DNA from: Bacilli bacterium
GTDB taxonomy: Bacteria; Bacillota_I; Bacilli_A; RFN20; CAG-826
Direction: 5' to 3'
DNA: 64,000 nucleotides
Assembly (NCBI GenBank): GCA_024408505.1
Contig: JAKSUZ010000004.1
Span: 1 to 64,000, forward strand
A program made the translations under genes and the position numbers. Shown here piece by piece: positions 100 to 38,284 of the stretch. The notes below the pieces were generated by a model that saw nothing but the letters and a program-made list of their open reading frames with translations, was not told where the DNA came from and did no database searches. Positions within the stretch are counted from its first letter, which is position 1, and each line of letters begins with the position of its first letter.

Positions 100-325
100 C
101 TACTTCTTTTTAGACTTCTCTAACCCCTTCACCCAACTACAATACATAGTAGGCGTGATTTTAAATTCTTTAATCACACTAGTCGCGCTCTTCTCACCTA
201 GCCTTACTTAACGCTACAGCGTCTTTAAATTTCTTCTTATCATATACCCTTATATTTACCCTTGATCTTTGCGACCGCTATTTCTTCCGCTCTAATATAT
301 AGAAATCCTCATCCCTCTCTTTTTG
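100..325 (-). pseudogene. Decayed serine recombinase, C-terminal remnant
   Basis: Read on the minus strand, this stretch matches the C-terminal third of the intact recombinase at 1608-2183, but in three pieces separated by frameshifts and stops. The pieces are YIRAEEIAVAKIKGKYKG, then YDKKKFKDAVA, then GEKSATSVIKEFKI followed by SWVKGLEKSKKK and a TAG stop at 100-102. The intact gene has EYIRARQAEGIAIAKKQ, YDKVKFKEAV and GKRTATSVAREFKI at the same places. The catalytic N-terminal domain is missing altogether. It is a dead copy of the small resolvase/invertase type, left next to a lipoprotein cassette. Confidence 0.8.
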
Positions 326-353: not shown

Positions 354-1583
354 ATGAAGAAACTAGGATTATTATTAATGCCATTAACGGCAGTATCTTT
401 TTTAGCAAGTTGTGGAGGGTCTAAAAATCCTACCATCACTTTTGATGGAGGAAAATATTTAACAATCGATAATACCGAATGTAAAAATCTAACCGAATTT
501 ACGGCTAAGATTTCGGTTAAAGACGAATATCTTGGTAAATACGAAGTCCCTCAAAACGAAGTTTATTATGAAATAACTAGAAACAACGAAGAGATTGATA
601 ACTTTCAAATTATTGAAGATGATAGTTTCAATTCAGTTTTCTTAAAAATCCCTGAAGAAGAAATGACTGGCAATATTATTATTAAAACCGAAGGCTTTTG
701 CCATTATTTAACATTTACTGGAGCAGGTGGCGAATATGTTTCTTATAGTTGCAAAGGAAATATCAGCGAAGAAATAAACATCCAGTATTGTAATAATTTA
801 GATACTCCGGTATGGAAAGATTGGGGAGTCGAGACTAAAATTTACTTAACTGGTGAAAATAGTGTCATTTATGTGAGGAACACCACAAACACACTTTCGA
901 AAGATGACTTAAATCGTGTGAAATTTAATGCGGGTGCAAGTGATCAAGTACTACTTGCTAGTGGTAATATTATGTCCTTACTTAATTTTAATAATCTACA
1001 AGATTATTCCTTTTACGAACTATTTGGTGAGATAAAAATGCTAGTTACGTCTCCAGTATTGCCAGCAACAACATTAACCAATCATTGTTATATGGATATG
1101 TTTTTTGGTTGTTCATCTTTAATTAGCGCACCTAAGTTACCCGCTACTACTATGACCGATTATTGTTATTGCAACATGTTTAGGAGGTGTTCGGCTCTTA
1201 CTATTGCACCTAAACTTCCTGCTACTGCTTTAGATCAATTTTGTTATTCTGCGATGTTTTCTGACTGTTCGGCTTTGACTACTGCTCCTAAGTTACCCGC
1301 AACTGCATTAGCAACTAATTGCTATGCGACGATGTTCGCTGACTGTGTGTCTCTTAAAAAAGCGCCTGAACTCCCTGCTACTACATTAGCGCCTTATTGC
1401 TATCTCAGGATGTTCGAATGGTGTTTAAATTTAAAAATAAATAACACAGGAACAGGAACAAAATTCTTTGATTGCTCCGACACAACTACCGATGGTTGCG
1501 TTGCTGATATGTTTTTAGAAACAGGCGGAACTTACACCGCTGATCCCGTTCCAGGTGAGTCTTATTACTACACTTTAGATTAG
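354..1583 (+). CDS. Surface lipoprotein with BspA-like cysteine-containing repeats
   Basis: A 409-residue predicted lipoprotein. The signal peptide runs to lipobox LASC (Cys20). Residues about 25-220 form an unrecognised beta-rich region. Residues about 230-370 hold five tandem repeats of about 23 residues with the pattern CYxxMFxxCxxLxxAPxLPATxL, typical of BspA-type leucine-rich repeats on surface proteins of gut and oral bacteria, which bind host or bacterial ligands. The signal peptide MKKLGLLLMPLTAVSFLASC is almost the same as that of the frameshifted lipoprotein at 7058-8592, whose ectodomain is unrelated. The gene is single, with its own promoter and a downstream hairpin terminator. 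The ligand is unknown. Confidence 0.8.
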   Translation: MKKLGLLLMPLTAVSFLASCGGSKNPTITFDGGKYLTIDNTECKNLTEFTAKISVKDEYLGKYEVPQNEVYYEITRNNEEIDNFQIIEDDSFNSVFLKIPEEEMTGNIIIKTEGFCHYLTFTGAGGEYVSYSCKGNISEEINIQYCNNLDTPVWKDWGVETKIYLTGENSVIYVRNTTNTLSKDDLNRVKFNAGASDQVLLASGNIMSLLNFNNLQDYSFYELFGEIKMLVTSPVLPATTLTNHCYMDMFFGCSSLISAPKLPATTMTDYCYCNMFRRCSALTIAPKLPATALDQFCYSAMFSDCSALTTAPKLPATALATNCYATMFADCVSLKKAPELPATTLAPYCYLRMFEWCLNLKINNTGTGTKFFDCSDTTTDGCVADMFLETGGTYTADPVPGESYYYTLD

Positions 1584-1604: not shown

Positions 1605-1627
1605 CGCTCATTTCTTATGAGCGTTTT
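1605..1627 (+). terminator. Rho-independent terminator after the BspA-like lipoprotein
   Basis: A 7-bp stem, CGCTCAT at 1605-1611 and ATGAGCG at 1617-1623, with a 5-base loop, followed by TTTT. It overlaps the last codons of the convergent recombinase gene. A second small inverted repeat (TTAGATT/AATCTAA) overlaps the lipoprotein stop codon. Confidence 0.6.
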
Positions 1628-2183
1628 CCATCTTCTTCGCCCATCTAAAATAAGTCATATAAGATATCTTAAATTCTCTTGCTACACTAGTGGCGGTCCT
1701 TTTTCCTTCTTTAACATCGTTAACTGCTTCTTTAAATTTAACTTTATCGTATTCTTTAGGTGCTTTACCTTTATATTTACCTTGCTTCTTAGCAATCGCT
1801 ATCCCTTCCGCCTGTCTAGCTCTTATATACTCTCTTTCGAGTTCTGCTAAACCTGCAAAGACAGTTACTACGAATTTACCAGAGGCTGATGCAGTATCTA
1901 CTTTCTCTTTTAGAGAAACGAAAGATACTTTCTTCTTCTTTAACTTATCTAATATAGTTAATAGATCAATTGTATTACGAGCGATACGTGAAAAGGATTC
2001 ACACATTACTACGTCCCCCGCTCTCGCAAATTCTAACATCTTATTTAATTGAGGACGATCCTTGGTGTTCTTCCCACTCATCTTATCAATAAAAATCTTT
2101 TCGGCCTTATTCTCTTTAGCCATTTGTTTCTGTCTTGCTATGTTTTGATCAAGACTACTAACTCTAATGTAAAAAATCTTCAT
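1608..2183 (-). CDS. Small serine recombinase (resolvase/invertase family)
   Basis: A 191-residue member of the Tn3-resolvase/Hin-invertase family, which cuts and re-joins DNA at short dyad sites through a 5'-phosphoserine link. Visible features are the catalytic serine in YIRVSS (Ser9), the arginine motif ESFSRIAR at about 60-70, the long E-helix region AGLAELEREYIRARQ, and a C-terminal helix-turn-helix (TATSVAREFKISYMTYFRWAKK). Length is normal for the family. I chose the ATG at 2183, not an upstream in-frame ATG at 2195, because the upstream one lies inside the TATAAT -10 box and the N-terminus MKIFYIRVSS fits the family. The gene is flanked upstream by repeat R1, where a resolvase normally has its res site. 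A decayed paralogue lies at 100-325. Confidence 0.92.
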   Translation of the reverse strand: MKIFYIRVSSLDQNIARQKQMAKENKAEKIFIDKMSGKNTKDRPQLNKMLEFARAGDVVMCESFSRIARNTIDLLTILDKLKKKKVSFVSLKEKVDTASASGKFVVTVFAGLAELEREYIRARQAEGIAIAKKQGKYKGKAPKEYDKVKFKEAVNDVKEGKRTATSVAREFKISYMTYFRWAKKMENAHKK

Positions 2184-2193
2184 AATTAACCAC

Positions 2194-2223
2194 ATTATAA
2201 CTTTAAGGTGGTCATTTTGTAAA
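2194..2223 (-). promoter_or_regulatory. Recombinase promoter overlapping repeat half-site
   Basis: On the minus strand a TTTACA -35 (2218-2223), an 18-base spacer and a perfect TATAAT -10 (2194-2199) lead to the ATG at 2183, 10 bases further on, with no Shine-Dalgarno. The -10 overlaps the first half-site of repeat R1 (ATTATAACTTTAAGG). If the recombinase binds these half-sites it would repress its own promoter, as classical resolvases do. Confidence 0.6.
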
Positions 2224-2338
2224 GTTATAACTTAAATATCGATACCAACCCTAAAGTTATACTCGCCAATTTATCACTTTAAGGTATACCCTAAAGTTAT
2301 ACCGTTAGGCTCCTCCACCCTATACCTTAAAGTTAGGA
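2194..2338. repeat. R1: res-like repeat next to the recombinase
   Basis: About 145 bp packed with inverted and direct half-sites of the form CCCTAAAGTTAT or ACTTTAAGG. They are seen near 2194-2208, 2221-2233, 2249-2261, 2277-2301 and 2319-2334. The part at 2277-2298 is a near-perfect 22-bp palindrome, ACTTTA(A/G)GGTATACC(C/T)TAAAGT, with two mismatches, centred on TATA. The segment from 2221 aligns with the right half of R5, and the far right part aligns with the extension of R4 (TTAGxxTCCxCxACCCTATA). Position and build recall a resolvase res site; binding itself is inferred. Confidence 0.7.
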
Positions 2339-2400
2339 ATTAATTTATAAAGAAATGTGATATTATAAAATAAAATTGTTAATTAGGAGATTCTTATTTT

Positions 2401-3720
2401 ATGGAAAAGAAAGAAAAAATATTATTAACTTCTACATGTGGTTTAGGAATGGTGTCAATTGTTTTTATTTCATTATTCGCGTGGAAAGCTGCAACTAGTG
2501 GAGGCGGTGATGTTCCACCAGAACCAGTTGATCACGTAAAGGTAAACTTTGCTACCGAAGGGTGTAAAGTTTATAAAGATGATAAAGCGATTACAAGCGA
2601 TGAAGCGATTAAAGATGCTTATCAAATTTATACTATTAAATTAGATGATGAATATAAACAAGATTATGATTTATCAGAATATTCTTTAAAGGTGTATACC
2701 TTAAATGGCGAAGAATACGATTCAACTCGCTATACTTTTAATTATAAAGCAGGAACTTTATTAATTAATCCAAGCGAAGAAGTTAATGTTAAATGTCGTG
2801 CAACATTAGCGGTGACTAAATTCACTTACGTTTATAGCGATGACGATTACGAAGTAACATTACAAATTCAAGGTGTATTTGATTATATTGATTGGGGTGA
2901 CGGTGCTCGTTCGATGTATACGCTACCAGGAACTTACAGCCACGAATATAATGAAGAAACTATAGAGGGTACCGAATATGTAATTCGAATCGTAGGAAGC
3001 GCCTCCAAAATCATTACTATGCAGCCTGGCGGTTTTGGGCCAAGATGGCTTAAAGAAGTGTATTTCAGTCATTACATTACTGATATTCCTGATTCATTAA
3101 TGCGCCAAGGCTACGAATATCAATGCCCTGTTGAAAATGTTTATATAGAGGACGGAATAGAAGTAGTGTCATCATTATCGGCAAAAACTCTTAACTATTC
3201 CAATGTCATAAAATCAGTTAGACTACCTGAAACCGCAAAGCTTCTAAGCGGAACTTTCCGTGATGCTCAATCTCTTAATGAAATTTCAATACCTGATGGT
3301 GTCACTATGTTTTCAACCGGATTATTTGCCTCTTCACAAATCAAAAAAGTGAATTTTACAAGTAAATCAAAGCTCACATATATTTCTGATCAATCGTTTA
3401 CTACTAACTCAGCTATTGAAGAACTTACTTTACCTAAACATGTGTCACACATTAATGCCCAAGCATTTAGTAATTGTTCCAGTTTAACAACTCTTGATTT
3501 ATCACTTTTAGACTCTGTTCCCTATTTAGGCGATACAATAGCCACCGAGGAAATTGATATGATGGATACTGTTTTTTATGGATGTGATTCTCTAAGTAAA
3601 ATCATTGTTCCAAAAGGAATGAAGGAAGCTTATCTTAACGATGAAAGTTGGCAAGTTCAAAAATTAAGCAGTGCTGGCACCGCAGGTGAAGTTCTAGACT
3701 TAATTGTCGAAGCTGAATAA
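2401..3720 (+). CDS. Membrane-anchored BspA-like leucine-rich-repeat surface protein
   Basis: A 439-residue protein with an N-terminal membrane anchor (residues about 8-31, no lipobox cysteine), a short linker GGGDVPPEP, and an exported region. Residues about 140-225 (WGDGARSMYTLPGTYSHEY) resemble a PKD-like surface-protein module. Residues about 235-425 carry BspA/LRR_5-type repeats (AFSNCSSLTTLDLS, VFYGCDSLSKIIVPKG). A likely function is adhesion or ligand binding at the cell surface. AGGAG lies 11 bases before the ATG. The gene sits between R1 and R2, so it forms one putative cassette of the region. Ligand unknown. Confidence 0.75.
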   Translation: MEKKEKILLTSTCGLGMVSIVFISLFAWKAATSGGGDVPPEPVDHVKVNFATEGCKVYKDDKAITSDEAIKDAYQIYTIKLDDEYKQDYDLSEYSLKVYTLNGEEYDSTRYTFNYKAGTLLINPSEEVNVKCRATLAVTKFTYVYSDDDYEVTLQIQGVFDYIDWGDGARSMYTLPGTYSHEYNEETIEGTEYVIRIVGSASKIITMQPGGFGPRWLKEVYFSHYITDIPDSLMRQGYEYQCPVENVYIEDGIEVVSSLSAKTLNYSNVIKSVRLPETAKLLSGTFRDAQSLNEISIPDGVTMFSTGLFASSQIKKVNFTSKSKLTYISDQSFTTNSAIEELTLPKHVSHINAQAFSNCSSLTTLDLSLLDSVPYLGDTIATEEIDMMDTVFYGCDSLSKIIVPKGMKEAYLNDESWQVQKLSSAGTAGEVLDLIVEAE

Positions 3721-3739
3721 TTACATTATACTATCTAAG

Positions 3740-3767
3740 ATTTCGCCCTGTATGGCGATTTCTTTTA
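3740..3767 (+). terminator. Terminator after the LRR surface protein
   Basis: Stem TCGCC (3743-3747) with GGCGA (3754-3758) and a 6-base loop, followed by TTTCTTTTAT. It is a short stem but has the expected T-rich tail, 20 bases after the stop codon. Confidence 0.5.
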
Positions 3768-3790
3768 TATAATCATTTTTATAGCGAACT

Positions 3791-3883
3791 ATAACTTAAT
3801 GTCTACCCTAATGTGACATAACAATAGGGTTCAAAAGTTGATTTAAGTTACATTTTTGTCCCGTATGGCTATACCTTAATGTT
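3791..3883. repeat. R2: res-like intergenic repeat
   Basis: This copy begins ATAACTTAATGTCTACCCTA and ends GGCTATACCTTAATGTTG. Inside is a hairpin, CCCTAATGT (3806-3814) against ACAATAGGG (3821-3829), with one mismatch. Its left 39 bases differ from R5 by one base, while its right half (GATTTAAGTTACATTTTTGT) matches R4, so the copy is a mosaic. It lies in the same orientation as the other copies. Confidence 0.8.
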
Positions 3884-3885
3884 GC

Positions 3886-3917
3886 ACAAAATGAAATCAC
3901 CCACGAATAGTGATTTC
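3886..3917 (-). terminator. Terminator of the DUF6273-like lipoprotein
   Basis: On the minus strand GAAATCAC and GTGATTTC form an 8-bp stem (3893-3900 with 3910-3917), followed by ATTTTGT. It lies 21 bases beyond the stop codon of the lipoprotein at 3939-4973. Confidence 0.55.
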
Positions 3918-3938
3918 TAAAATAAGTTCAATTATTAA

Positions 3939-4973
3939 TTAAATACAGAAAGCTGGAGCAATCGCTTGCGCACTATTATAAACTTCGTAACTGCTGCTAA
4001 AGTCGCCATCGACATAGACACTCCACGCTTCGACATTGCCATCAGTACTAGGTGAGCGGAGCCATGAAACACCACCTTCAGTACTATTTGATTTAGAGTT
4101 ATAACCTGCATAATTAGAAACTTTATCCCCATAAATTTGGCCCTTACCACTTGGAATTTCGTTATGAGCTGTATATTCCTCATCACCTTTAATTTGTTTC
4201 TTAACCCTATTAATCTTCTCAGCATCTTTATAATAAGAATATGTAGTGGTATGAGATTCTTCATGTTCAGTATCTTCTGTATTACCCATTTCTTTTGGTG
4301 AAAGCAAGAATAATTTATCTTCAACTATTTGTTCTTTCCAACCACCATCATAAATATTTACATATTTAGCGGGAGTCTTTAATATACCATCTTTTGTTAA
4401 TTCATCTGGGAGCATATCTAATACTGATTTATCCGTATAAAGACCATCTGATTCATTTGACCAATGATTGTTTCCTTTTTGCGCCCATAAAATATGATCA
4501 CATCCACTACTACCGGTCCTTTTATTTAAAGCATAACGGATTGATGAATTAAGGTAATTATTATTAGCGGTACTAGTATCTTTTGTATCATTCCATTGGG
4601 TTACTAAGGAGTAACCGTTCGCATCGCTAATTAAATCAACAAATTCAAAGGTAATACCTATCGCTTTACTTGGATCAGGTTCGTTTCCGTCAGTTGGTAA
4701 TTCAGTATAATCTTCATTAATACCAATAATTCTCACAGTTTGATATAATTCGCCATCATCAATTATTCCGTTGTTATTCGCATCTTGGTGTTTTAACTGA
4801 AGTTTCTTAGTATCGCCTACTTTAAACCACTCTTTAGCCTTGCCAGCTTTACTTACTTGACTAATCTTTTCCCAACTACATTCTTCTAGGGGTTTAGGTT
4901 CGCCTAATCCTTTATTACAACTCGCTAGAAACGAGATAGTCATTAATGGTATAACAAATATTAACTTCTTCAT
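3939..4973 (-). CDS. Surface lipoprotein with DUF6273-like C-terminal domain
   Basis: A 344-residue lipoprotein with signal peptide and lipobox LASC (Cys19). The C-terminal part has the pattern SWLRSPSTDG...AWSVYVDGDF...IAPAFCI, which matches the DUF6273 family of exported proteins (WLRSPG...GVRPAF) in Firmicutes; that family has no assigned function. The central motif HILWAQKG is also shared with the frameshifted lipoprotein at 7058-8592, and the two are clear paralogues. The gene is flanked by direct repeats R2 (3' side) and R3 (5' side). The -10 lies only 8 bases from the ATG, so the message is probably leaderless. Confidence 0.8.
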   Translation of the reverse strand: MKKLIFVIPLMTISFLASCNKGLGEPKPLEECSWEKISQVSKAGKAKEWFKVGDTKKLQLKHQDANNNGIIDDGELYQTVRIIGINEDYTELPTDGNEPDPSKAIGITFEFVDLISDANGYSLVTQWNDTKDTSTANNNYLNSSIRYALNKRTGSSGCDHILWAQKGNNHWSNESDGLYTDKSVLDMLPDELTKDGILKTPAKYVNIYDGGWKEQIVEDKLFLLSPKEMGNTEDTEHEESHTTTYSYYKDAEKINRVKKQIKGDEEYTAHNEIPSGKGQIYGDKVSNYAGYNSKSNSTEGGVSWLRSPSTDGNVEAWSVYVDGDFSSSYEVYNSAQAIAPAFCI

Positions 4974-4998
4974 ACATTAAAATTATACACAAAAAAAG
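4974..4998 (-). promoter_or_regulatory. Promoter of the DUF6273-like lipoprotein (leaderless type)
   Basis: On the minus strand CTCTTTTTTTGTGTATAAT places TATAAT at 4982-4987, 8 bases before the ATG at 4973, with no ribosome binding site between. The sequence closely resembles the promoter of the lipoprotein at 354. Confidence 0.55.
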
Positions 4999-5005
4999 AG
5001 AAAGT

Positions 5006-5100
5006 GTACTTAAGGTCCGCCCTAAAGTGTCATAACAATAAGGTTTAAAAACTGATTTATGTTACAAATTCGTACCATATGGCTATACCCTAAAATTATG
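5006..5100. repeat. R3: res-like intergenic repeat
   Basis: This copy begins near GTACTTAAGGTCCGCCCTAA and ends GGCTATACCCTAAAATTATG. The left half (GGTCCGCCCTAAAGT, then GTTTAAAAACTGATTTA) matches R4. The right half has its own changes. It has the same orientation as R2, R4 and R5, and lies upstream of the lipoprotein at 3939-4973. Confidence 0.8.
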
Positions 5101-5399
5101 TAGTGCTATGCATTGGAATTTAGTGGCAAAAACGAAATGTATATGTCCATTTGAAATTAACGATTCATGATAAGATAAATGATAAGATAAAATAGATTAA
5201 ATGCCGATGAATTCTGCTTTTCGTTCATGTTGGTGGAAAATAAGATTGATAAGATAAATGATAAGATAAATTTGTTTGATTAAAGAATTCTCAATCTATT
5301 AAAAAGGCTAAATTTCTTTTTAATGCTTGAATTACTACAAATTCATTTGTTATTTGTTTTGTAAAACTTAAGTTATTCCCAACTTATTCCCAACATTAA
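5101..5399. repeat. Gene-poor stretch with GATAAGATAAAT tandem words
   Basis: No intact gene is visible. The 12-base word GATAAGATAAAT occurs as tandem pairs at 5169-5192 and 5248-5271, and TTATTCCCAAC occurs twice in tandem at about 5373-5394, just beyond the ATPase stop codon. Read on the plus strand, the second pair gives ENKIDKINDKINLFD, then a stop, then RILNLLKRLN. This resembles the low-complexity DKxNDK linker before the winged-helix tail of AlbA_2/RecG-like ATPases, so the stretch may be the scar of such a gene. A DNA-binding iteron role is the alternative. Confidence 0.4.
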
Positions 5400-6680
5400 T
5401 TAATCTTTTAAACAACCAATAGGAATAACGAATACACCATCTTTCCTTTTATAACCATATTCCGATGCAGTTATAATGATTTTTAAATCAGGGAGCCGGA
5501 GGGGGCATTGTTTTTCTTTTTTATTATATTCTTTAACTAGATTTTCAATTTCACACAAATGGTTTGCAGCTTTTTCAACCTCTGACTCGCCTAGTTTATA
5601 TTCAATTAAAGCATAGCGACCATCATCTAGATGAAGAACGCCATCAGCTTCTAAACCATAGCGATCGCGATAATAAGACATGAATCCGCCTTCAACTGAT
5701 GAATATATCTTTAAATCACGTGCACAAAGTGATTCAAAAAAGAAACCTAACGTTTTAAAATCCTTATAAAAATATTCGCGAGATAGTCCTAATGAAGCAA
5801 CTGCGATTGAAGGATCAACAAAATTTCTTTTTCTTTTGCTTCTAATGTTTGATTGACTACGAATAGCAGGACACCAGGCTTCAATATCCTCAATTATGCA
5901 TAATTCTTCTAATGCATTAAGATAGGCATGGAAGGTCATTTCTGAAATACTACTATTACTTTTTACATCTTGATAAATGGTTTTTGTGTCCGCTAAAGTA
6001 GAAATATTTCTAGCATATGACTGTATGATTAATTTTGACCAGTTATGGTTTTTTAAACTTTTGTCTATACTTGATACATCAAACAAGTATGTTTGCTTAA
6101 ATAAATCCTTCGCAATCAATAATTTTGATTTAATATCTTGATAATTCAAAGTTTTTGGCCATCCGCCAATACAAATCGCATCTATTACATCTTCGATGCT
6201 CATCGATGACTTACAGCCTTTAAACGAATTAGGATTATCAAATAACTTTTTTAAACTAACAGTTCCGTTTGAATAACCTAATTCAAATAAACTCATTGGA
6301 TTCATCCGAATTGTAGAAATTCTTAATGTACCAGTATGAGGAGTTTCGATTTTTTTTGAACTAGAACCAGTCAAATAGAAAGAGCCTGTATCCTTCGGAT
6401 TATCATCACAATTTTTCCTAATCGTGCCCCATATTTTGGGAGCATCTTGCCATTCATCAAATAAAATCGGTTTCGGATTTTTTAAAAATTGAATCGGCGA
6501 AGTAGAAGCAATCAATAGAAGATTGTCTCGCGCTTCTTCGTTCTGAAATTCTATAACCGTTTTTGCTCTTTGTTTGGCAGTAGTTGTTTTTCCACTTCCT
6601 TTAGGCCCGATAATATTTACTGCATTAAATACTTTAGTAATAGAGTCTAAATATTTATCTATAATTCTTTTTTTATACAT
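5400..6680 (-). CDS. AAA ATPase with DUF4143 C-terminal domain
   Basis: A 426-residue ATPase of the AAA_14/DUF4143 type. Walker A is GPKGSGKT (25-32), Walker B is PILFDEWQ (71-78), and a sensor-like LTGSSSKK follows at about 109. The C-terminal region ends in a restriction-endonuclease-like core (EADGVLHLDDGRYALIEYKLG, about 350-370). These ATPases are common, often duplicated and of unknown cellular role; several are found in mobile or accessory regions. The start at 6680 is preceded by GGAGG and by a TATAAT at 6698-6703. Three 23-bp direct repeats lie just upstream of the -10. The gene sits between R3 and R4. Confidence 0.85.
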   Translation of the reverse strand: MYKKRIIDKYLDSITKVFNAVNIIGPKGSGKTTTAKQRAKTVIEFQNEEARDNLLLIASTSPIQFLKNPKPILFDEWQDAPKIWGTIRKNCDDNPKDTGSFYLTGSSSKKIETPHTGTLRISTIRMNPMSLFELGYSNGTVSLKKLFDNPNSFKGCKSSMSIEDVIDAICIGGWPKTLNYQDIKSKLLIAKDLFKQTYLFDVSSIDKSLKNHNWSKLIIQSYARNISTLADTKTIYQDVKSNSSISEMTFHAYLNALEELCIIEDIEAWCPAIRSQSNIRSKRKRNFVDPSIAVASLGLSREYFYKDFKTLGFFFESLCARDLKIYSSVEGGFMSYYRDRYGLEADGVLHLDDGRYALIEYKLGESEVEKAANHLCEIENLVKEYNKKEKQCPLRLPDLKIIITASEYGYKRKDGVFVIPIGCLKD

Positions 6681-6697
6681 ATTATACCTCCGTGTAT

Positions 6698-6775
6698 ATT
6701 ATAAAGCATTTTAGTGTTTCGTGGTAATTCATTTTAGTGTTTCGTGGTAATTCATTTTAGTTTTTCGTGGTAAAT
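6698..6775 (-). promoter_or_regulatory. ATPase promoter with three 23-bp direct repeats
   Basis: A -10 box (TATAAT on the minus strand, 6698-6703) is followed upstream by three exact-length units of 23 bp at 6707-6729, 6730-6752 and 6753-6775. Units 1 and 2 are identical and unit 3 differs at two positions. The shared core on the plus strand is TTTCGTGGTAA. The array covers the -35 region and more, so a regulator binding it would control the ATPase gene. Whether that regulator is the ATPase itself is unknown. Confidence 0.55.
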
Positions 6776-6880
6776 CATTAGGCTATCAGATTATTCAAGA
6801 GGTGAGAATTCTTTGCATTTTCTGATGAAAAAGTCACAATAAATGTCACAATAAATGTCACAATAAAAAATAAATAAACT
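6776..6880. repeat. Intergenic stretch with tandem GTCACAATAAAT words
   Basis: Three tandem copies of GTCACAATAAAT, the last ending -AAA, lie at 6833-6868. Read on the plus strand they encode SDEKVTINVTINVTIKNK and then a stop, which looks like the VTxNVTxN linkers of AlbA_2-type ATPases. A decayed gene end is therefore possible. I see no intact gene or other structure here. Confidence 0.35.
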
Positions 6881-7003
6881 ATAACTAAAGGTCCGCCCTA
6901 AAGTAACATAACTATAGGGTTTAAAAACTGATTTAAGTTACATTTTTGTCCCTTATGGCTGTACCCTAATGTTATATCATTAGAGTCCCCTACCCTATAA
7001 GTT
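6881..7003. repeat. R4: res-like intergenic repeat with right extension
   Basis: The core copy runs from ATAACTAAAGGTCCGCCCTA at 6881 to CCCTAATGTTAT near 6975. It includes the hairpin pair CCCTAAAGT/ACTATAGGG and GATTTAAGTTACATTTTTGT. A further 27 bases (TTAGAGTCCCCTACCCTATA) match the right end of R1, showing that R1 and R4 keep a fuller form of the element. Same orientation as R1, R2, R3 and R5. Confidence 0.8.
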
Positions 7004-7033
7004 AAACAAAAAGAAATCGCTCACGATGAGCGA
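7004..7033 (-). terminator. Terminator of the frameshifted lipoprotein
   Basis: On the minus strand TCGCTCA and TGAGCGA form a perfect 7-bp stem with a 3-base loop (7017-7023 with 7027-7033), followed by TTTCTTTTTG. It is a strong candidate intrinsic terminator, 24 bases beyond the stop codon. Confidence 0.7.
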
Positions 7034-7057
7034 AGTCTTAAATAAGTCAATTACTAA

Positions 7058-8592
7058 TTAGATACAGAAAGCGGGAGCGAGAGAATAGGCATAATAACAA
7101 CAATTATCTGGAAAAATGACTCCAGAAAACCAAATATTGTAGGCAGCACGATGAGTTTCGCGGTCAGGCTCTCGTAAATAAGCATGACCACCATCTGATT
7201 CATTTGGATTAAATCCTGCATAATTTTCAACATCGTTTGGATAAGTTTGCCCTTCGTGATTGGTGATGAAACACTCCCCACCGTAATCGTTTTCTTTTAC
7301 TTGTCTTTTAATACGTAAACCTTGCAACTCTACTTCATCTCTTTCCTGATAATAAGTGTAAGCGCCTTCACGAGTTTTTTTGCTTCCCATTTCTTCAGGT
7401 GATAATAAGAAGATTTTATCGTATTCGTTTTTGTTGTTTATTATTTCCTTTTCTTCCCAAGCGTTAGTATTTTTATTAAAGCAAGATACGCTTTTCTTGG
7501 GTGCGATTAGTTTATCAACAAAGGTAGGATTGCCTTCATCTATCATTTCAAGAGCGGATTTATCCTTATAAGGATTATCATCTTGAAGTGACCAAGCAGT
7601 CGCGCCTTTTTGCGCCCATAATATATGACCGTTTCCTTCTCCCATTAGTGCTTTTCGAATTGAAGAATTTAGATAATCGTCGTTTGCCGATCCGGTATCC
7701 CAATCAATATCATCCGAATCATTCCATTGGGTCGCTAATGAATAACCATAACTATCACTAAGTAAGTTAGAAAATTAAAAGTACAATGGATTGTGTTTCC
7801 GTTTGCATCAACATCTTTATCTACATCAATCAAACGAACTTTATGTTCCACTCCGTTAACGGTTAATTTAACTTCAATTCCTTGTTTAATGTCCTCTTCA
7901 GTCGCCTGTTCATACTCAACTCCGTTAGAACAATAATTCCACCAATCTTCGTAATCATACCATCTAGCCGTTTTATCGGGTAATTTAGGTGTTTTCTCTT
8001 CGTAAGAATAAATAAATTCAGTACTATAATTCTCATTCTCATTTGTTTTAATCGCATAGGAGACTACTTTTTTATTATTAAATTTTAAAGTTAAATTAAT
8101 TGTGCCTGAAGTAGTTGACGCAGCATAACTCTCTATTTCTTTATTATAAGTGAACGAATTATAAGATAAGCCTAATTTGTCAATTTGACTAAGTATATTA
8201 ACATCATCCGATTGTGGAGTGATAAATGCATCTTCACCAACATTTTTGCGAAGTGAAAAAAGTCGGGTTTTCGAATAACGATAATATTCATCATATGTAC
8301 CATCATTATTTTTACCAACATATGTCTCGCTATAAGAATTAATTTCTTCTGAGGATGAGACGTAATGATATACTTTAGGAGACATTTCTTTTACTACAAG
8401 TTTTTCACCACCATCATAATAATTAAGTTGAAGATATGTTATATCTTTAAAAGAGCAAGCATTATTAAATTCTTGTTCATTCACTACATGTTCATCAGTT
8501 GGTTGAGGTTCTGGTTCAGGATCTTTATTACCACAACTTGCTAAAAGACTTACTGCCATTAATGGCATCATTAATAATCCTAGCTTTCTCAT
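7058..8592 (-). pseudogene. Frameshifted DUF6273-like surface lipoprotein
   Basis: The 5' part (8592-7735) encodes signal peptide MRKLGLLMMPLMAVSLLASC and about 270 residues, then runs into an out-of-frame tail. The 3' part (to 7058) encodes HILWAQKG, LREPDRETHRAAYNIWFSG and SLAPAFCI, the DUF6273-like ending seen in the intact paralogue at 3939-4973. The reading frame is lost by one base near the A4 run at 7771-7774. In the next frame the code continues SNLLSDSYGYSLATQWND, which aligns with DLISDANGYSLVTQWND of the paralogue. A sequencing error cannot be excluded. The gene lies between R4 and R5. Confidence 0.82.
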
Positions 8593-8750
8593 ATATAAAA
8601 GCCTCTATCTAGTTCTTATTATATATTATGTGCTAACATTATACTAATTAGTGGTCCAAGATTTAGGGTTCACTGCACTCTGTAGTACTATTAATGTTTT
8701 GCTCACTAAACAGTTAAAACAGTTATGACAAGCAATATTTAAATGATCAA

Positions 8751-9941
8751 TTAGTGTAATAGCCAGTCGGCAATATCAATAATTTTTATTCCACGAAATT
8801 GGTACGGCGGATGTTTAGTACGAGTAATAATTACTTTTTCATGGGCGTCTTTTATAGATAGAAGAGGGGAGTATTCGCGCTTAAATGTTTCTGGATTAGA
8901 TATATCATCGCAAACTTGAATATAAGTTTTATTTTCACCATCCATAACGACAAAATCCACTTCTTTTTGATAAAGAGTCCCGACATATATATCAAGGCCT
9001 CTTCTTAATAATTCAATTGCAACAATATTTTCATAAACTCGTCCATAGTCATTATATCGATTACCTAATCTTGCATAACGTGCGCCAAGATCAACAGTGT
9101 AATATTTTTCATTGGTAGATAAATAACCGCCACCTTTTATGTCGTACCTTTTCACTTTGTAAAAAACAAAACCTTCACATAAAAATTTTGCATAATTCCC
9201 AATGGTCTTATGATCAACTGAAACATCGTTATTATTAATAACCCGAGTAATGTTCCTTAAAGATGTAATGTTACCAATATTATCAAACATATAGTCCACA
9301 AGATTGCTCATTGCCGACTGATTACTGACGTTATTTTTTTTCATAATATCCTTGAGAACAATAACATCAATTACATTATTAATATAATCTTTTTTTCTTT
9401 TTGCTCCGCTATACACATAACTACCTGCAAACCCACCTTCTTGTACATATTTATCAAAAGATTGATAAACATCACTATTGCCAAAATACTTAAGATATTC
9501 TTTAAAAGAAAAGGGAAATACCTTTATTTCCATATATCTGCCGGTAAATAAAGTTGCTAAGTCGGAACTTAACAAAAATGCATTAGAACCCGTCAAATAA
9601 ATATCATACTTTTTTGAATCGAATAAATCATTAATTGCAATTTCGAACTTGGGGCATAATTGAACCTCATCAATGAATAGATAATTGTTTTTATTAGGCA
9701 AATATTTATCTTTGATAAAATTATAGAGTTTTTTATAATCTTTTAAATCATCATAGGCAATTTTATTGAAATTAATAAAAATAATATTGTTTTTCTTATC
9801 CGTTTTTTTAATGTAATCGATATATTGATTTAACAAAAACGATTTTCCTGAACGACGCACTCCAGTAATAATTTTTATTTCAGGTGTGCCTTTAAGTTCA
9901 ATAAGTTCTTTTAAGTAGGTTTCTCTTTCAATAATCTTCAT
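8751..9941 (-). CDS. AAA ATPase with DUF4143 C-terminal domain (second)
   Basis: A 396-residue ATPase of the AAA_14/DUF4143 family. Walker A is GVRRSGKS (27-34), Walker B is LFIDEVQ (88-94), and LTGSNAFLLSSDL with FTGRYMEIKVFPFSFKEYL follows. The C-terminal nuclease-like core is ENIVAIELLRRG...KEVDFVVMDGENKTYIQV. It is the more typical of the two DUF4143 ATPases here, and the two are only distantly related. The family role is unknown. It ends 158 bases upstream (in reading order) of the frameshifted lipoprotein and starts about 100 bases from R5, so it falls in the last cassette before ordinary chromosomal genes. Confidence 0.87.
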   Translation of the reverse strand: MKIIERETYLKELIELKGTPEIKIITGVRRSGKSFLLNQYIDYIKKTDKKNNIIFINFNKIAYDDLKDYKKLYNFIKDKYLPNKNNYLFIDEVQLCPKFEIAINDLFDSKKYDIYLTGSNAFLLSSDLATLFTGRYMEIKVFPFSFKEYLKYFGNSDVYQSFDKYVQEGGFAGSYVYSGAKRKKDYINNVIDVIVLKDIMKKNNVSNQSAMSNLVDYMFDNIGNITSLRNITRVINNNDVSVDHKTIGNYAKFLCEGFVFYKVKRYDIKGGGYLSTNEKYYTVDLGARYARLGNRYNDYGRVYENIVAIELLRRGLDIYVGTLYQKEVDFVVMDGENKTYIQVCDDISNPETFKREYSPLLSIKDAHEKVIITRTKHPPYQFRGIKIIDIADWLLH

Positions 9942-9968
9942 ATGTACATATATACTATATTACACTCA

Positions 9969-10003
9969 TTCCCCAAACTCAAATTTTTTTGCGATTTGGG
10001 GAA
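9969..10003. promoter_or_regulatory. Perfect inverted repeat upstream of the ATPase
   Basis: TTCCCCAAA (9969-9977) and TTTGGGGAA (9995-10003) form a perfect 9-bp inverted repeat with a 17-base spacer. It lies 28-62 bases upstream of the ATPase start codon at 9941, so it overlaps or flanks the promoter. It could be an operator for a dimeric repressor. A terminator is less likely because neither side has a T-run. Confidence 0.4.
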
Positions 10004-10044
10004 CGACGGTCATAATTGCATTATTTTAATTTATAACTAAAAGG

Positions 10045-10138
10045 TAACTTAATGTCCACCCTAATGTGACATAACAATAGGGTTATAAAATGCATAAAAG
10101 TTATAAATTTGTATCGTATGGCTATACCCTAATGTTAT
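10045..10138. repeat. R5: res-like repeat at the accessory/core boundary
   Basis: This copy begins TAACTTAATGTCCACCCTAA and ends GGCTATACCCTAATGTTAT. Its left 39 bases match R2 with one change. Its right half (AAAAGTTATAAATTTGTATCG) aligns best with R1. It ends 11 bases from the stop codon of the RNA methyltransferase gene, the first ordinary housekeeping gene, so it marks the edge of the variable region. Confidence 0.8.
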
Positions 10139-10149
10139 CTAGTTTGTTC

Positions 10150-10776
10150 TTAGATTAGATGCGCGAAAATAATTGATGCCGCAACAGTAACATTTAAAGA
10201 ATCTATATTCTTTATATCAATCTTAATTACATCATGAGCGAGCTTTAAAATATTAGAATTAACACCACGAGATTCATTACCGAAAATAAGCACAAATTTA
10301 TTTTTTAATTTAAGTTTATTTAAATAGTTTGTGGACTTAAGACCAGTTGCTACTATTTGATAATTTTCTTTGAGTTTTCTAAGTGTATTAATATCACCAT
10401 AACTAAGATTTATATCAAAGATACTATCTTTAGCGATGGCTAAACATTTCTCGTTATAAATAGATACCGAATTAGGCGAGAGCATTAAATCCTTAATTCC
10501 ATATTTTTTCATTAAATAAATGATTTTGCCTAAATTTGATGGATCACTAATTTCATCTAAATAAATGATTTTATTACCGACTGGATGATGTGGAAGAAAT
10601 TTAACTATTCCGATTACACCATCTTTGGTTTGATATGCTTCTTTTAATAAACCAAGTTGTTTGGCTTTTTTAATGGATGCTAAATCAAATACTAAAAAGA
10701 GTTGCTGTTTATTCCTTTCTTTTGTGATTAGAAGTTTATTAACTTCTTTTTGCTTATTTTTGCTGATCTTTTCCAT
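10150..10776 (-). CDS. SpoU/TrmH-family RNA 2'-O-methyltransferase
   Basis: About 208 residues. The SPOUT family motifs are present: ISDPSNLGKIIYLMKKYG (motif 1), FGNESRGV (motif 2) and IKNIDSLNVTVAASIIFAHL (motif 3, the knotted SAM site). The enzyme should transfer a methyl group from SAM to a ribose 2'-OH in rRNA or tRNA; the target base cannot be told. I prefer the ATG at 10776 (MEKISKN) over 10797. It overlaps the end of the preceding YgjP-like gene by about 23 bases, so the genes are translationally coupled. Last gene of the mannosidase operon. Confidence 0.85.
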   Translation of the reverse strand: MEKISKNKQKEVNKLLITKERNKQQLFLVFDLASIKKAKQLGLLKEAYQTKDGVIGIVKFLPHHPVGNKIIYLDEISDPSNLGKIIYLMKKYGIKDLMLSPNSVSIYNEKCLAIAKDSIFDINLSYGDINTLRKLKENYQIVATGLKSTNYLNKLKLKNKFVLIFGNESRGVNSNILKLAHDVIKIDIKNIDSLNVTVAASIIFAHLI

Positions 10777-18716: not shown

Positions 18717-20762
18717 ATGAAAAAAATTACTTTTGTTTTTCTTCCGTTTATCGTTACTCCATGTGTAGTTTCATGTAATCGTTCGGATGACTTTACCGCT
18801 ATGCGCGATGCCTATCGGAAATATTTAATTGAGACTACAAATTTTGACGATTATAAAGACAAAACCGCTAGTGATATTATGCAAGAAGTAAATAGCAAAG
18901 ATATCGGTGGAATTGAAACTTATTATTTCCCTGATTTAGACTACGATTATTGCTATGATCGTGCTTCCGATAAGTGGCCAGCTTTAAAGCATATGAATCG
19001 GACTTTCCATATTACTTTAGCATATGCTACTAGACACGATAACGCTCTTAAAGATATTGCAGTTAAACTCACTAATTATTGGGTATTTAATAATTATCGA
19101 AACACGAATTGGTTTAATAATGAGTTAGGTGCAGATAGCACATTAGGAAATATCGGATTATTCATTTACGATGATTTATGTCCAAAAGCACAATCAATGT
19201 TACGTGGGAGAATTGCCGAAGCAAGTATTTATCATCATCCATCCCTAGCAACACATACTGGCGCGAATTTATTTGATTTTGTAAATGCAACATTAAAGTC
19301 TTCAATTATTTCACGTAATTGGGAAGAACTAGATTTTGGAATCACTCGTGCGGAAGATGAAATTACCGATGAAAATAAAGAAGGGTTCCAAAAGGATGGT
19401 TCTTTCTTTCAACATGGTCAACAATTGCAAACAGCGTCATATGGCAAGTCATCACTACGCCTTGGACGAATTATGTATGTTCTTAGTCATTCAAGTCGTA
19501 AATTTGATCAAAGCAAATTAAATATTATTTCGCGTTATATTCTTCGTGGTCTACGTAGTATCACTCATAAAGGATATTTAAATTATAGTTCGGCTGGTCG
19601 TGAATATGTTAGACGTAACAATATGACCACAAGCGGTTTATCCGATTTAAAATTCTTTGTTGATTATCCTGGCTTCCCCGATAATGATCAATTAATTAAA
19701 TACATTGATGATAACGAAAATAAACGTTCAACATTTAATGGCATTGTTTATTTTGATAACGCCAAGATGGTAACCATGAATATTGATGACTTATATATTT
19801 CCTTTAAAGGCGCTGATTATAATCTCACTAATACTGAATGCGTAACCGATGAAAATTCTTTAGGATTAAATTTATCTTACGCCACAAATACATGCATTAT
19901 GGACCGTGGAGATGAATATTATAATATCCCGGCTTTGTGGGATTATTCTTATATTCCTGGCACTACATCAATTCAATACTATCAAGGCAAACCTCTTGGT
20001 GATAACTTTATGTCTGATGGCGATAAAAACATTTATAAAATCAATACCGAATGTTATAAAGATTCATTGTATGAACAAACCTTACCTACACCAGAACCAT
20101 ATGGAAGTAACCTCACTTATAAAAGTGGATATGACGAAGCAAATAACATTGCCTACTTTATGCAACGGAGTAGACATCACGAAGAAAACGAATTCACCAT
20201 CACTAGCATTGCTTGCGAAGATGGGATGGTATTAATTGGAGCGGAATTATCTTATACTGGAGAAAAAAGCGCACAATATATCGAAGGTACTGGGTTAAAA
20301 GTTGATCCTACTCTTCATACAACTTTACAGCAATGCATGGCGACTGGGAATGAAGAATTAAGTGCAGATGGATTAACTCTAACATGTGGTAATGCTTTTT
20401 ATCGTTCGTTAGACGGGAAAGAAATTAACGTTGTCAAAGATAGAATGGTTAATAGTAAAGAATATCGTAATTATCGTAGATACGATGATAAGGATTTAGG
20501 TGAAGATGTTAGCGGTAAACTCTTCCTTGCGTATTTAAATTTAGAAACTAATAGAGATGGTAAGTACGCTTATTCTATTCAACCGACCACAAGAAAAAGC
20601 AAAGTATTCGAAGTAAAAAATAATTTTGATCGAGATGAGGTTCAAGAAGTAAGACTACCAAATGGAAAGGTGGTTATTATTCCTTATAAAACTGTTTCTC
20701 AATATCAACCATCTGTTGGCGGTCCAATAAATTTAATAAAAGATATGATTGTCATTCTTTAG
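18717..20762 (+). CDS. Lipoprotein polysaccharide lyase, PL8-like, copy 1
   Basis: A 681-residue surface lipoprotein (lipobox VVSC, Cys20) resembling family-8 polysaccharide lyases (hyaluronate, chondroitin AC, xanthan lyases), which cut next to uronic acid by beta-elimination. The N-terminal alpha-toroid (about 25-320) has NTNWFNNELG, which fits the aromatic patch NWWxxEIG of the family. Catalytic residues line up: Asn184 (TGANLFD), His233 and Tyr242 (QHGQQLQTASYG), Arg295 (SAGREY). The beta domain has WDYSYIPGTTS, as in NPYKMPGTTE of hyaluronate lyase. The substrate is not decided by sequence. Followed by a terminator. Confidence 0.85.
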   Translation: MKKITFVFLPFIVTPCVVSCNRSDDFTAMRDAYRKYLIETTNFDDYKDKTASDIMQEVNSKDIGGIETYYFPDLDYDYCYDRASDKWPALKHMNRTFHITLAYATRHDNALKDIAVKLTNYWVFNNYRNTNWFNNELGADSTLGNIGLFIYDDLCPKAQSMLRGRIAEASIYHHPSLATHTGANLFDFVNATLKSSIISRNWEELDFGITRAEDEITDENKEGFQKDGSFFQHGQQLQTASYGKSSLRLGRIMYVLSHSSRKFDQSKLNIISRYILRGLRSITHKGYLNYSSAGREYVRRNNMTTSGLSDLKFFVDYPGFPDNDQLIKYIDDNENKRSTFNGIVYFDNAKMVTMNIDDLYISFKGADYNLTNTECVTDENSLGLNLSYATNTCIMDRGDEYYNIPALWDYSYIPGTTSIQYYQGKPLGDNFMSDGDKNIYKINTECYKDSLYEQTLPTPEPYGSNLTYKSGYDEANNIAYFMQRSRHHEENEFTITSIACEDGMVLIGAELSYTGEKSAQYIEGTGLKVDPTLHTTLQQCMATGNEELSADGLTLTCGNAFYRSLDGKEINVVKDRMVNSKEYRNYRRYDDKDLGEDVSGKLFLAYLNLETNRDGKYAYSIQPTTRKSKVFEVKNNFDRDEVQEVRLPNGKVVIIPYKTVSQYQPSVGGPINLIKDMIVIL

Positions 20763-20769
20763 ACAGGAA

Positions 20770-20796
20770 AGGTATTTGTAAAACAAATATCTTTTT
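20770..20796 (+). terminator. Terminator after PL8-like lyase 1
   Basis: AGGTATTTG (20770-20778) and CAAATATCT (20784-20792) form a 9-bp stem with one G-U pair and a TAAAA loop, followed by TTTTG. It would end the eda-kdgK-lipoprotein-lyase transcript, 8 bases after the lyase stop. Confidence 0.65.
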
Positions 20797-20804
20797 GTTA
20801 TAAT
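20796..20804 (+). promoter_or_regulatory. Extended -10 promoter of lipoprotein/lyase pair 2 (leaderless type)
   Basis: TGTTATAAT at 20796-20804 is a perfect extended -10. The ATG at 20812 begins only 7 bases later, so the transcript would start at or next to the start codon. It follows the terminator stem directly. Confidence 0.6.
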
Positions 20805-20811
20805 TTTACAT

Positions 20812-21678
20812 ATGAAAAAATGTATTTATTTGCTTATCGTGCCAACGTTAATTGCTTTAACCTCTTGTGGCAATAAATATCCCCATCATAAATCAGGCGA
20901 ATTTTGTAATGTAACATTTATTGGACATGATGTTAGTTGTGATTGCCCATCCTATACACATATGGATCGTGATTTAGATCTTAAACTCAATATTCCGTTT
21001 TTTGATCACGAAGATGCAGTTTGGGAACAGACTCCAACCGAAGATAGCGAAGGCCAACTTGATAAACCGGTTCAAGAATATGCTGTTAGTGTTAATGACA
21101 TTAAAGTGTTAATTGGTGGTAAGGAATATCCAGATTCATGGTGTTTCTATTATCGCCATAACGATGATAATTTATTAAAAATTAAAAAAGAATATGTTGT
21201 GGATGATATAACGATTGATGTTACCGCTCATCCTTTTGGCGATTTATTCTTGTACGGGATAGTTATAGGCGATGAATTGTGGCATCGTTGGATTGATAGC
21301 GAAGAAGAGATAAGCGAAGAGTACCCTCATGATTTGCAAATTGATTTAGCGACTTTTTATCAAAGTAAACCATATCCAATAAAAACTTTATCAGGCCAAA
21401 AAACTTTCCCGGTTCTTGAACACGATAATGTCGACATCACATTCGAAGTAACTGATCAAGAACATCCACCGCTTCCTAATGATATTCGCTTGCGCAGTAA
21501 TGCACGTTACGCTGCGATGGGGACTGATTATACTCGTGAATATTCTAATCAATATACTTATAAACCTGATGAATCAAATTCAGAAACTTGGATAACCGGT
21601 TATCAGACTTGCCATTTAGTCGTCCCTCATTACATAGTGATGGATCACATTTCATTTAGACAATTTGGTACGGAGTGA
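20812..21678 (+). CDS. Lyase-associated lipoprotein, family A, copy 2
   Basis: A 288-residue lipoprotein (lipobox LTSC, Cys19) homologous to the copies at 17907 and 31568. Shared blocks include HHKSGEFCNVTF near the start, MDRDLDLKLNIPF, VLIGGKEYPDSW, KTFPVLEHDNVDITF and VPHYIVMDHISF. No known enzyme motif is visible. It has its own leaderless-type promoter and is followed after 4 bases by PL8-like lyase 2. The strict pairing with a lyase points to substrate capture or lyase docking at the cell surface. Confidence 0.7.
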   Translation: MKKCIYLLIVPTLIALTSCGNKYPHHKSGEFCNVTFIGHDVSCDCPSYTHMDRDLDLKLNIPFFDHEDAVWEQTPTEDSEGQLDKPVQEYAVSVNDIKVLIGGKEYPDSWCFYYRHNDDNLLKIKKEYVVDDITIDVTAHPFGDLFLYGIVIGDELWHRWIDSEEEISEEYPHDLQIDLATFYQSKPYPIKTLSGQKTFPVLEHDNVDITFEVTDQEHPPLPNDIRLRSNARYAAMGTDYTREYSNQYTYKPDESNSETWITGYQTCHLVVPHYIVMDHISFRQFGTE

Positions 21679-21682
21679 TTTT

Positions 21683-30038: not shown

Positions 30039-31532
30039 ATGGAAAAGACTATTTCTAGAAAAACCATTGCCAGTCGAAGCGGAATTACTTGGAAAGATAT
30101 TCTCTTCTACGCGATGGGTGATTTTGGCAACTGTTTTGTTTTTGCCATTAGTACATCATTACTAAACGCTTATTACACCAAGTGTTTAGCATTTAACCCG
30201 CTTTACGTTATTATCATTTTCGCAATTGCACGTATTTGGGATGCAGTGAACGATCCAATCATGGGACGTATCGCTGATAAGATGAAACCAAATAAACACG
30301 GTAAATATAAACGTTGGTTACTTTACATGGCGCTTCCTGCAGCTATTGTTTCGATTTTAATGATGATTCAAATGGGCCCGATGGGCAAAGATGGAGACTT
30401 CTGTAATATTTGGTGGCAATACCTAGTCGCTGGTATTACTTATATCTTGTATGGTATGACTCTTACTGCCATCCAAATTCCTTACGGATCGTTAATTAAT
30501 GCTGTAACCGCTGATGCTAAAGAAAGAGGCAAACTTTCAATGGCGCGTGGCATTGCTGGTAGTTTAGGTGGATTACCAGTTATCTTAGTTAAGATGTTTT
30601 GTTTAGTTGATAAAAAGGTTAATCCTACCGGTTTTGAATGGCAACCAATGATTATTGGTGTTGCGATTTTAGGCGTATTCTCGGCTATCTTCCTATTCCT
30701 CTGCTATAAATACACTAAAGAAAGAAATATTGCTCAGCCCGCTCCAAGAGAAAAGGGCGCATTTAAAAAGAGCATCAACCGTATTGTTCACAACCGTTCA
30801 ATGCTTTCAATTTGCACAATTGCAATTTTACTCGCAGGCGGAAGTATGTTTGGGGCAGTTATTTCCGTTTTCGTTTCAACCGATTTCTTTAATATGTCAG
30901 GTTTTAATACTGGCCTACCAGATATTCTTAATATCGGTGGCATTTTCTTAACTATGTTCTTTGTTCCTCCGATGGCAAAGAAGTTTGGCAAGAAAGAAGC
31001 TACTACAATGGGTGCTTTATTTTGCGTGGTAATTTATATTTTACAATTATGTATATTCTGGTTACCTCATCAAACTGAAGTTTATCCATATTACTTATAT
31101 GTTCTATGTAACTTCCTAAGCGGACTTGGCTCTGGATTCTTTAACTGCTTACTCTGGGGTATGGTCGGTGACGCGATTGATGATATTTATATCAAAACCG
31201 GAATCCGTGAAGATGGTACATCATACTCAATCTTAATGTTCTTTAGAAAAGTCGGTCAAACTGTGGCGTTCTGTGGTGGCCAAGGTATCTTGATTGCGAT
31301 TGGCTATGTCTCAGGAGTTAAATTAAGTGAATCTCAACTAACCATGTTCTGGTTCTTATCAAACGGCATTCCACTTGTTTGTTTTGTTATTGCGGTGCTC
31401 TTATTTATCTTTTGGTATCCAATTAACAAGAATCGATTAGAAGAAATCCAAGACGCTAAAGAGTTAATGCTTAGAAAAGAAGAAAGTGGATTAAAGGCTA
31501 ATAAAAAAATAGCGTTAAATAAAGCAAAATAA
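30039..31532 (+). CDS. GPH-family sugar:cation symporter, copy 1
   Basis: A 497-residue, 12-helix transporter of the glycoside-pentoside-hexuronide (MelB-like) family. The family signature is seen in ARIWDAVNDPIMGRIADKMKP (about 66-86), with the matching loop further on (GDAIDDIYIKTGIREDGTSYS). The family takes up hexuronides, glycosides and disaccharides with Na+ or H+. Two paralogues lie at 34567 and 38285. All three probably import lyase products, perhaps of different size or sulphation. The start is 8 bases after the previous stop and is preceded by AAGGAG. Confidence 0.9.
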   Translation: MEKTISRKTIASRSGITWKDILFYAMGDFGNCFVFAISTSLLNAYYTKCLAFNPLYVIIIFAIARIWDAVNDPIMGRIADKMKPNKHGKYKRWLLYMALPAAIVSILMMIQMGPMGKDGDFCNIWWQYLVAGITYILYGMTLTAIQIPYGSLINAVTADAKERGKLSMARGIAGSLGGLPVILVKMFCLVDKKVNPTGFEWQPMIIGVAILGVFSAIFLFLCYKYTKERNIAQPAPREKGAFKKSINRIVHNRSMLSICTIAILLAGGSMFGAVISVFVSTDFFNMSGFNTGLPDILNIGGIFLTMFFVPPMAKKFGKKEATTMGALFCVVIYILQLCIFWLPHQTEVYPYYLYVLCNFLSGLGSGFFNCLLWGMVGDAIDDIYIKTGIREDGTSYSILMFFRKVGQTVAFCGGQGILIAIGYVSGVKLSESQLTMFWFLSNGIPLVCFVIAVLLFIFWYPINKNRLEEIQDAKELMLRKEESGLKANKKIALNKAK

Positions 31533-31540
31533 CAACAAAC

Positions 31541-31564
31541 ATATTTATTTGATATAATAAATAT
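31541..31564 (+). promoter_or_regulatory. Promoter inside a perfect inverted repeat before pair 3
   Basis: ATATTTATT (31541-31549) and AATAAATAT (31556-31564) form a perfect 9-bp inverted repeat. An extended -10, TGATATAAT (31550-31558), lies in its centre. The ATG at 31568 is 9 bases after the -10, without a Shine-Dalgarno. The dyad could be an operator placed over the core promoter, or a weak terminator of the transporter before it. Confidence 0.5.
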
Positions 31565-31567
31565 AGT

Positions 31568-34554: not shown

Positions 34555-34566
34555 TTATTAAAAATT

Positions 34567-36117: not shown

Positions 36118-36132
36118 GGAGGGAGTGATTTT

Positions 36133-36738: not shown

Positions 36739-36759
36739 TAATTAAAAAGGAGATTATTT

Positions 36760-38208: not shown

Positions 38209-38219
38209 CTACTTTTCTC

Positions 38220-38243: not shown

Positions 38244-38284
38244 AAATCCTTCTTTTTGTGATACTTTATTTGTAAGGGGATTTT

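Follow-up and report, generated by a model that had tools for sequence, protein, structure and literature searches.

Directly repeated res-like sites beside a serine recombinase gene delimit a putative array of gene cassettes in two related Bacilli genomes

Integrons are the textbook gene-capture arrays; they rely on a tyrosine recombinase and on sites that are folded single strands. Classical serine resolvases delete DNA rather than integrate it. In Tn3 res, dyads I, II and III are 28, 34 and about 25 bp long, and orientation is set by the accessory dyads. Serine invertases of surface genes (Mpi, Hin) are small recombinases with surface-protein targets. An integron consists of the integrase IntI, the site attI and cassettes with attC sites (PMC8618304). 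Tn3 res has three dyads, with a longer spacer in site II, and a 22-bp linker between I and II (PMC9943657). In the dif/pdif modules of Acinetobacter, adaptive genes lie between sites for site-specific recombination, at differing positions in different replicons; the modules depend on the tyrosine recombinases XerC and XerD, have short dif sites and inversely oriented flanks, and are mostly on plasmids (PMC6449649).

We analyzed a 64,000-nucleotide stretch of DNA (the window) that lies at the beginning of contig C34 in a 1.23-Mb MAG (G000), and compared it with G001, a MAG of a sister species from horse faeces that is the nearest compared relative having the system. The two carrier MAGs are 86.7% and about 85% complete, and G001 has 7% contamination. 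Positions 1608-10138 of the window contain a gene for a 191-aa serine recombinase, a site (R1) and then four gene blocks parted by the sites R2-R5 (Table 1). The genes between the sites are those named in the initial annotation: an LRR protein, a DUF6273 lipoprotein, a DUF4143 ATPase, and a lipoprotein with a second ATPase. We think it likely that the locus is an array of gene cassettes, parted by complete res-like sites, that a serine resolvase would excise and insert, making it an analogue of an integron and not an integron.

Table 1. Coordinates of the array, its flanks and the I-type arm copies. Positions are those of the window unless another locus is given; a caret marks the core centre.
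Feature	Position	Strand	Remarks
Remnant of recombinase C-terminus, internal stops	103-228	-	Adjoins lipoprotein gene
Lipoprotein gene adjoining recombinase	354-1583	+	51% aa homologue in G001, likewise beside a recombinase remnant
Serine recombinase CDS, 191 aa	1608-2183 (alternative end 2195)	-	PF00239 E 1e-40; Sin 2r0q E 8e-25
R1, I-type site	2194-2338	+	Core centre 2286^2287
R1 dyads	III 2197-2229; II 2227-2260; I 2273-2300		II, 34 bp; I, 28 bp
Cassette 1, R1 core to R2 core	2287-3871	+	BspA-type LRR protein, CDS 2401-3720
R2, C-type site	3789-3886	+	Core centre 3871^3872
Cassette 2	3872-5085	-	DUF6273 lipoprotein, CDS 3939-4973
R3, C-type site	5003-5100	+	Core centre 5085^5086
Cassette 3	5086-6961	-	DUF4143/AAA_14 ATPase, CDS 5400-6680
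R4, C-type site with extended right arm common to R1	6877-7006	+	Core centre 6961^6962 (GGCTG^TACC)
Cassette 4	6962-10124	-	Frame-broken DUF6273-type lipoprotein 7058-8592; second DUF4143 ATPase 8751-9941
R5, C-type site, array end	10040-10138	+	Core centre 10124^10125; 12 bp from SpoU stop codon
SpoU-type methyltransferase, chromosomal flank beyond cassettes	10150-10776	-	90% aa with G001
I-type arm copies	2194-2286; G000 C23 L162:5440-5640; L054:10995-11110; L055:11256-11400; L056:1724-1864

The layout resembles that of an integron. A recombinase gene lies by a special site and is followed by cassettes of one or two genes, with a site of another class at the end of each; the site-bounded cassettes adjoin a distinct attI-like site, the sites have one orientation, and cassettes vary between relatives at the same place. 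However, the enzyme is a PF00239 serine resolvase rather than a tyrosine IntI, and the sites are duplex, multi-dyad sequences without a conserved hairpin, whereas attC sites are single-strand hairpins. The folds of R2-R5 differ from one another and are weak (z +0.5 to -2.0), which rules out attC-like hairpin sites. In addition, the lipoprotein cassettes have their own promoters, and I-type arms (see below) also occur at loci without a recombinase gene. Compared with dif/pdif modules, the array has a serine enzyme, is chromosomal, and has sites of about 97-145 bp that share one orientation and contain serine-recombinase dyads. Unlike the targets of the serine invertases, all five sites in the window have the same orientation, with no inverted pair. 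Because the sites are directly repeated, the array predicts excision or insertion and not promoter inversion.

We found that the sites fall into two classes. R2-R5 are 97-nt direct repeats in a single orientation, with 76-87% identity to R2. A site sequence model, built from nine C-type-like sites that partly are R2-R5 themselves, scored each of the four at 91-96 bits (E ≤ 2e-27). The next-best match in the window was R1 at 23 bits, the remaining matches were weak, and the scan detected no C-type site in the window besides R2-R5. The left ~90 bp of R1 are unlike those of R2-R5, with the half-site ACCCTAAAGTTAT and the core GGTATACC in common; R1 also carries half-sites of the R2-R5 type (ACCCTAAWGTTAT) and the core GGTA^TACC, and has a 45-bp right arm in common with R4. 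The initial annotation described five related repeats in one orientation built of inverted half-sites. This holds for R2-R5 as one family and for the half-sites and core of R1, but it overlooked the distinction between I-type and C-type arms.

The inverted half-sites are at fixed offsets from the core across 13 sites, against a background of 0.4 per 100 bp. In the aligned sites of both genomes the core reads GG(G/C)TA^TACC(C/T)TAA, with slight variation, and the arm to its left is of either the I-type or the C-type. I-type arms, 91 bp long, front the recombinase gene in both species and are also found on G000 C23 and on G001 C16 and C12. C-type arms, of about 88 bp, occur at R2-R5, on G000 C28 and at four loci in G001. 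Rightward of the core, a site continues into either the terminal part of the following cassette or chromosomal flanking DNA. Copies of the I-type arm are 93-97% identical within a genome and 58-62% identical between species, even though two pairs are at orthologous flanks, a pattern that points to concerted change, the cause of which is unexplained.

The geometry of the sites resembles that of Tn3 res in the lengths of the inverted-repeat dyads I and II, in an AT-centred crossover and in overlap with the recombinase promoter. Dyad I extends from -14 to +13 (28 bp) in all sites. Dyad II measures 34 bp whether the site is C-type (-54 to -21) or I-type (-60 to -27), and a third dyad farther to the left is 27 bp (C-type) or 33 bp (I-type); parts of II and III match weakly. 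These accessory dyads are present to the left of the core only. In contrast to Tn3 res, the linker between dyads I and II is 6 bp (C-type) or 12 bp (I-type), each genome has many complete sites with genes between them, and there are two classes of left arm.

R1 had been placed just upstream of a resolvase-type recombinase, and we confirmed this assignment. The protein has a resolvase N-terminal domain (PF00239, E 1e-40) and a C-terminal HTH. The closest solved enzyme, Sin (2r0q), aligned over residues 2-180 (E 8e-25), with S9, R7, R66 and R69 kept as in Sin. The res of Sin has only two dimer sites. In size and catalytic residues the enzyme is like Sin and the Tn3/gamma-delta resolvases (PMC9943657). 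The HTH_Tnp_1 match was under the curated cut-off, the match to the Mpi invertase model was weak and far under its cut-off, and the Ccr models matched far below theirs. A large serine integrase (phage, SCC Ccr) was rejected on length, 191 aa versus about 450 aa or more. Tn3-family transposons include a transposase and terminal repeats. Gene and domain annotation of the window showed that none of the genes surrounding the array encodes a transposase, and an origin as transposon debris was rejected on this ground.

The sites are linked to the recombinase across genomes. A search of 224 family and 279 order genomes with the site model returned strong C-type sites from G000 and G001 alone, and no other family genome has a recombinase of >90% identity. 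The proposed link between repeats and recombinase was open to refutation by repeats spread through genomes independently of the gene, and the distribution is the opposite. Weak matches in other genera (E 0.001-0.01) cover partial stretches of the site, and two site patterns gave isolated matches in viral contigs that the full model scored weakly. In G192, two perfect ACCCTAAAGTTAT half-sites lie ≤65 bp upstream of the start of a recombinase homologue with 56% identity, and a 50% homologue (in G143) has one ACCCTAATGTTAT half-site within the same distance, in both cases without an array. Enzyme and half-site thus go together. No repeated site was present at a 48% homologue (in G084), and a scan for repeated upstream sites found no comparable array at 13 related genome-contig loci (one of them G001's own) or 10 viral-contig loci.

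G000 contains a second recombinase gene on C28 (L008:6-293), with 51% identity over the 97 residues present; the contig end cuts the gene. This contig holds a further C-type site, by a BspA-type LRR lipoprotein gene and the recombinase fragment. A SAM riboswitch (L008 3425-3532) comes after this site, and the flank that it marks had no counterpart in G001-G004. Remnants of the recombinase C-terminus lie by lipoprotein genes in the window (103-228) and at L054:263-442 and L054:1843-2064, as if units of lipoprotein and recombinase genes had been duplicated and had then decayed.

If cassettes move, related genomes should differ at the sites, and the initial annotation had specified beforehand that an absence of breakpoints there would speak against it. 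We found that the sister species does break at the cores. The comparison of junctions was between G000 and G001 only, two MAGs, in assembled sequence. The G001 counterpart of cassette 2 has 81% aa identity; it lies behind the recombinase's I-arm in G001 and behind a C-arm (R2) in the window. Between R2 and the G001 site on C2, identity was 91% in the 150 bp to the right of the core and 61% to the left (shuffles, 60%). Conversely, R1 and the same G001 site have recombinase-side flanks that are 84% identical 105-505 bp left of the core and are unrelated to its right (57%; shuffles, 57%).

A second set of junctions involves the I-type arms. The recombinase-linked I-arm leads to the SpoU array in G000 and to miaA-side cassettes in G001, where miaA sits past this arm and its lipoproteins. 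The I-arm upstream of a second locus, a small conserved gene pair, leads to miaA in G000 (C23) and to the SpoU array in G001 (C16). Judged from the two assemblies, the two I-sites have exchanged right-hand partners. The SpoU flank matches between species (86%) up to the R5 core; beyond R5, the adjacent ATPases are only 52% identical, compared to 88-93% for three flanking genes. In G003 and G004, SpoU-pheS-pheT is uninterrupted, without an array. At secA, the G000/G001 alignment starts just past the G001 C-type site. A 5.5-kb stretch of G001 lies between that site and an I-type site; it lacks any substantial DNA match in G000 and encodes two 2-hydroxyglutaryl-CoA dehydratase-like proteins, a BadF ATPase and a Fic protein. 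In G000, a lipoprotein gene and a degenerate site occupy this place. Misassembly at the repeats is unlikely because no two sites of a genome share an exact stretch longer than 28 bp (G000) or 49 bp (G001). The comparison with the sister species supports recombination at the core.

These features could be accounted for as follows. A site comprises one crossover dyad (I, about 28 bp, GGTA^TACC) and the left-side dyads II (34 bp) and III. The I-type arm lies before the recombinase gene and at a small number of other places in the chromosome that would serve for landing, and the C-type arm is at one end of each cassette. Two directly repeated sites would recombine at the AT centre, and since a cassette spans core to core, excision would release it as a circle with a single complete site. 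If that site then recombined with an I-type or C-type site, the cassette would be re-inserted, leaving an I-arm at the head of the array and a C-arm with the old flank at the far end, the arrangement seen. The AT overlap, being palindromic, has no polarity of its own, and the accessory dyads must therefore dictate orientation, as they do in Tn3 res. Of these steps, insertion is the one we are least sure of, given the bias of resolvases towards deletion. The earlier proposal of cassette exchange is supported in that the recombinase's sites are the places of exchange. The sequences show the sites, their geometry, their co-occurrence with the enzyme and the change of junction partners at the core; from these we infer that this recombinase catalyses the exchange, that cassettes form circles and that they are integrated as well as excised.

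Several observations argue for this mechanism: the same cassette behind different left arms in two species, the swap of I-arm partners, the SpoU and secA flanks conserved up to a site, the fixed geometry of 13 sites, the intact catalytic residues, the half-sites upstream of the 56% and 50% recombinases, and the confinement of C-type sites to genomes with a >90% recombinase. Other observations count against it. The evidence comes from two MAGs, the G001 C2 cassette is missing one boundary (there is no C-arm after it), the site at secA in G000 is degenerate, no half-sites lie upstream of the C28 recombinase copy, the I-arm changes fast, and the linkers of 6 and 12 bp depart from the 22 bp of Tn3.

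Our results might also indicate that an ordinary resolvase only deletes or inverts DNA between res sites, and that the cassettes came by other means, for example by homologous recombination or with elements that have since vanished. Direct, res-like sites with accessory dyads are the setting in which known resolvases delete, a single inversion between two chromosomal I-sites could produce the partner swap, and relatives with a single site exist. However, deletion and inversion leave unexplained why every cassette has a C-type arm distinct from the I-type, and the finding of a C-arm or an I-arm before the same cassette requires either excision and reinsertion or deletion of neighbours up to the I-site. 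We therefore regard this explanation as rather unlikely. Homologous recombination between intergenic repeats, with the recombinase uninvolved, is very improbable. The C-arms are 64-86% identical to each other over about 88 bp and the lipoprotein signal regions are alike, but the key junctions join I-arms and C-arms, which are unrelated beyond the half-sites, and yet break exactly at the core; furthermore, the longest exact match in G000 is 28 bp. A reading of the R elements as regulatory repeats, or as miniature mobile ones, placed upstream of lipoprotein genes is hardly credible, since the half-sites are also in the promoters of the recombinase and its relatives and partners switch at the centre of the element and not at its ends, even though the C-arm gives several lipoprotein cassettes a -35 (GTTACA, N17, TATAAT).

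If excision and insertion by the serine resolvase are correct, cassette logic would have arisen independently on duplex res sites, and the array would raise the question of how a class of enzyme known for deletion can also insert. The sites and their cores are now defined to the base. It is possible, although we hold it with some doubt, that the array represents a new class of chromosomal gene capture, in which a resolvase would serve as an integron-like integrase on I-type and C-type res sites, with several dispersed landing sites per genome and cassette promoters embedded in the sites, and would both move and regulate surface genes. Our literature search yielded integrons, pdif modules and resolvases and no cassette array with a serine recombinase; subscription journals and preprints were mostly outside its coverage, making this absence weak evidence.

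The contents of the cassettes agree only in part with variation of surface proteins, as first proposed. Most cassette genes encode lipoproteins, and to this extent the array would give a handle on possible surface lipoprotein variation in these uncultured gut Bacilli. The ATPases do not fit this function, nor do the 2-hydroxyglutaryl-CoA dehydratase-type enzymes and the Fic protein that G001 adds.

The sites also contribute to promoters. The recombinase promoter (TTACAA N17 TATAAT) falls inside R1. In lipoprotein cassettes at R3, on C28 and at two G001 sites, the outer half-site of the C-arm is the -35 (GTTACA; AGTACA at R3), 17 bp from TATAAT; that of R3 serves cassette 2. This overlap suggests that binding of the recombinase would repress its own promoter and those of the cassettes.

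Other features of the window are as follows. Tandem short repeats (TTTTAGTGTTTCGTGGTAATTCA) lie at 6710-6775, directly upstream of the cassette 3 ATPase gene. The cassette 4 lipoprotein gene (7058-8592) is split between two frames, and has therefore probably either been disrupted or been misassembled. Other long direct repeats, at 18717-24190 and 30039-39769, are paralogous neighbours (three lipoprotein-like and three transporter-like genes). Finally, two lipoprotein gene starts (341-415 and 8531-8605; -10 and signal peptide) are 83% alike, more than the remainder of the genes, and homologous exchange could therefore use these regions too.
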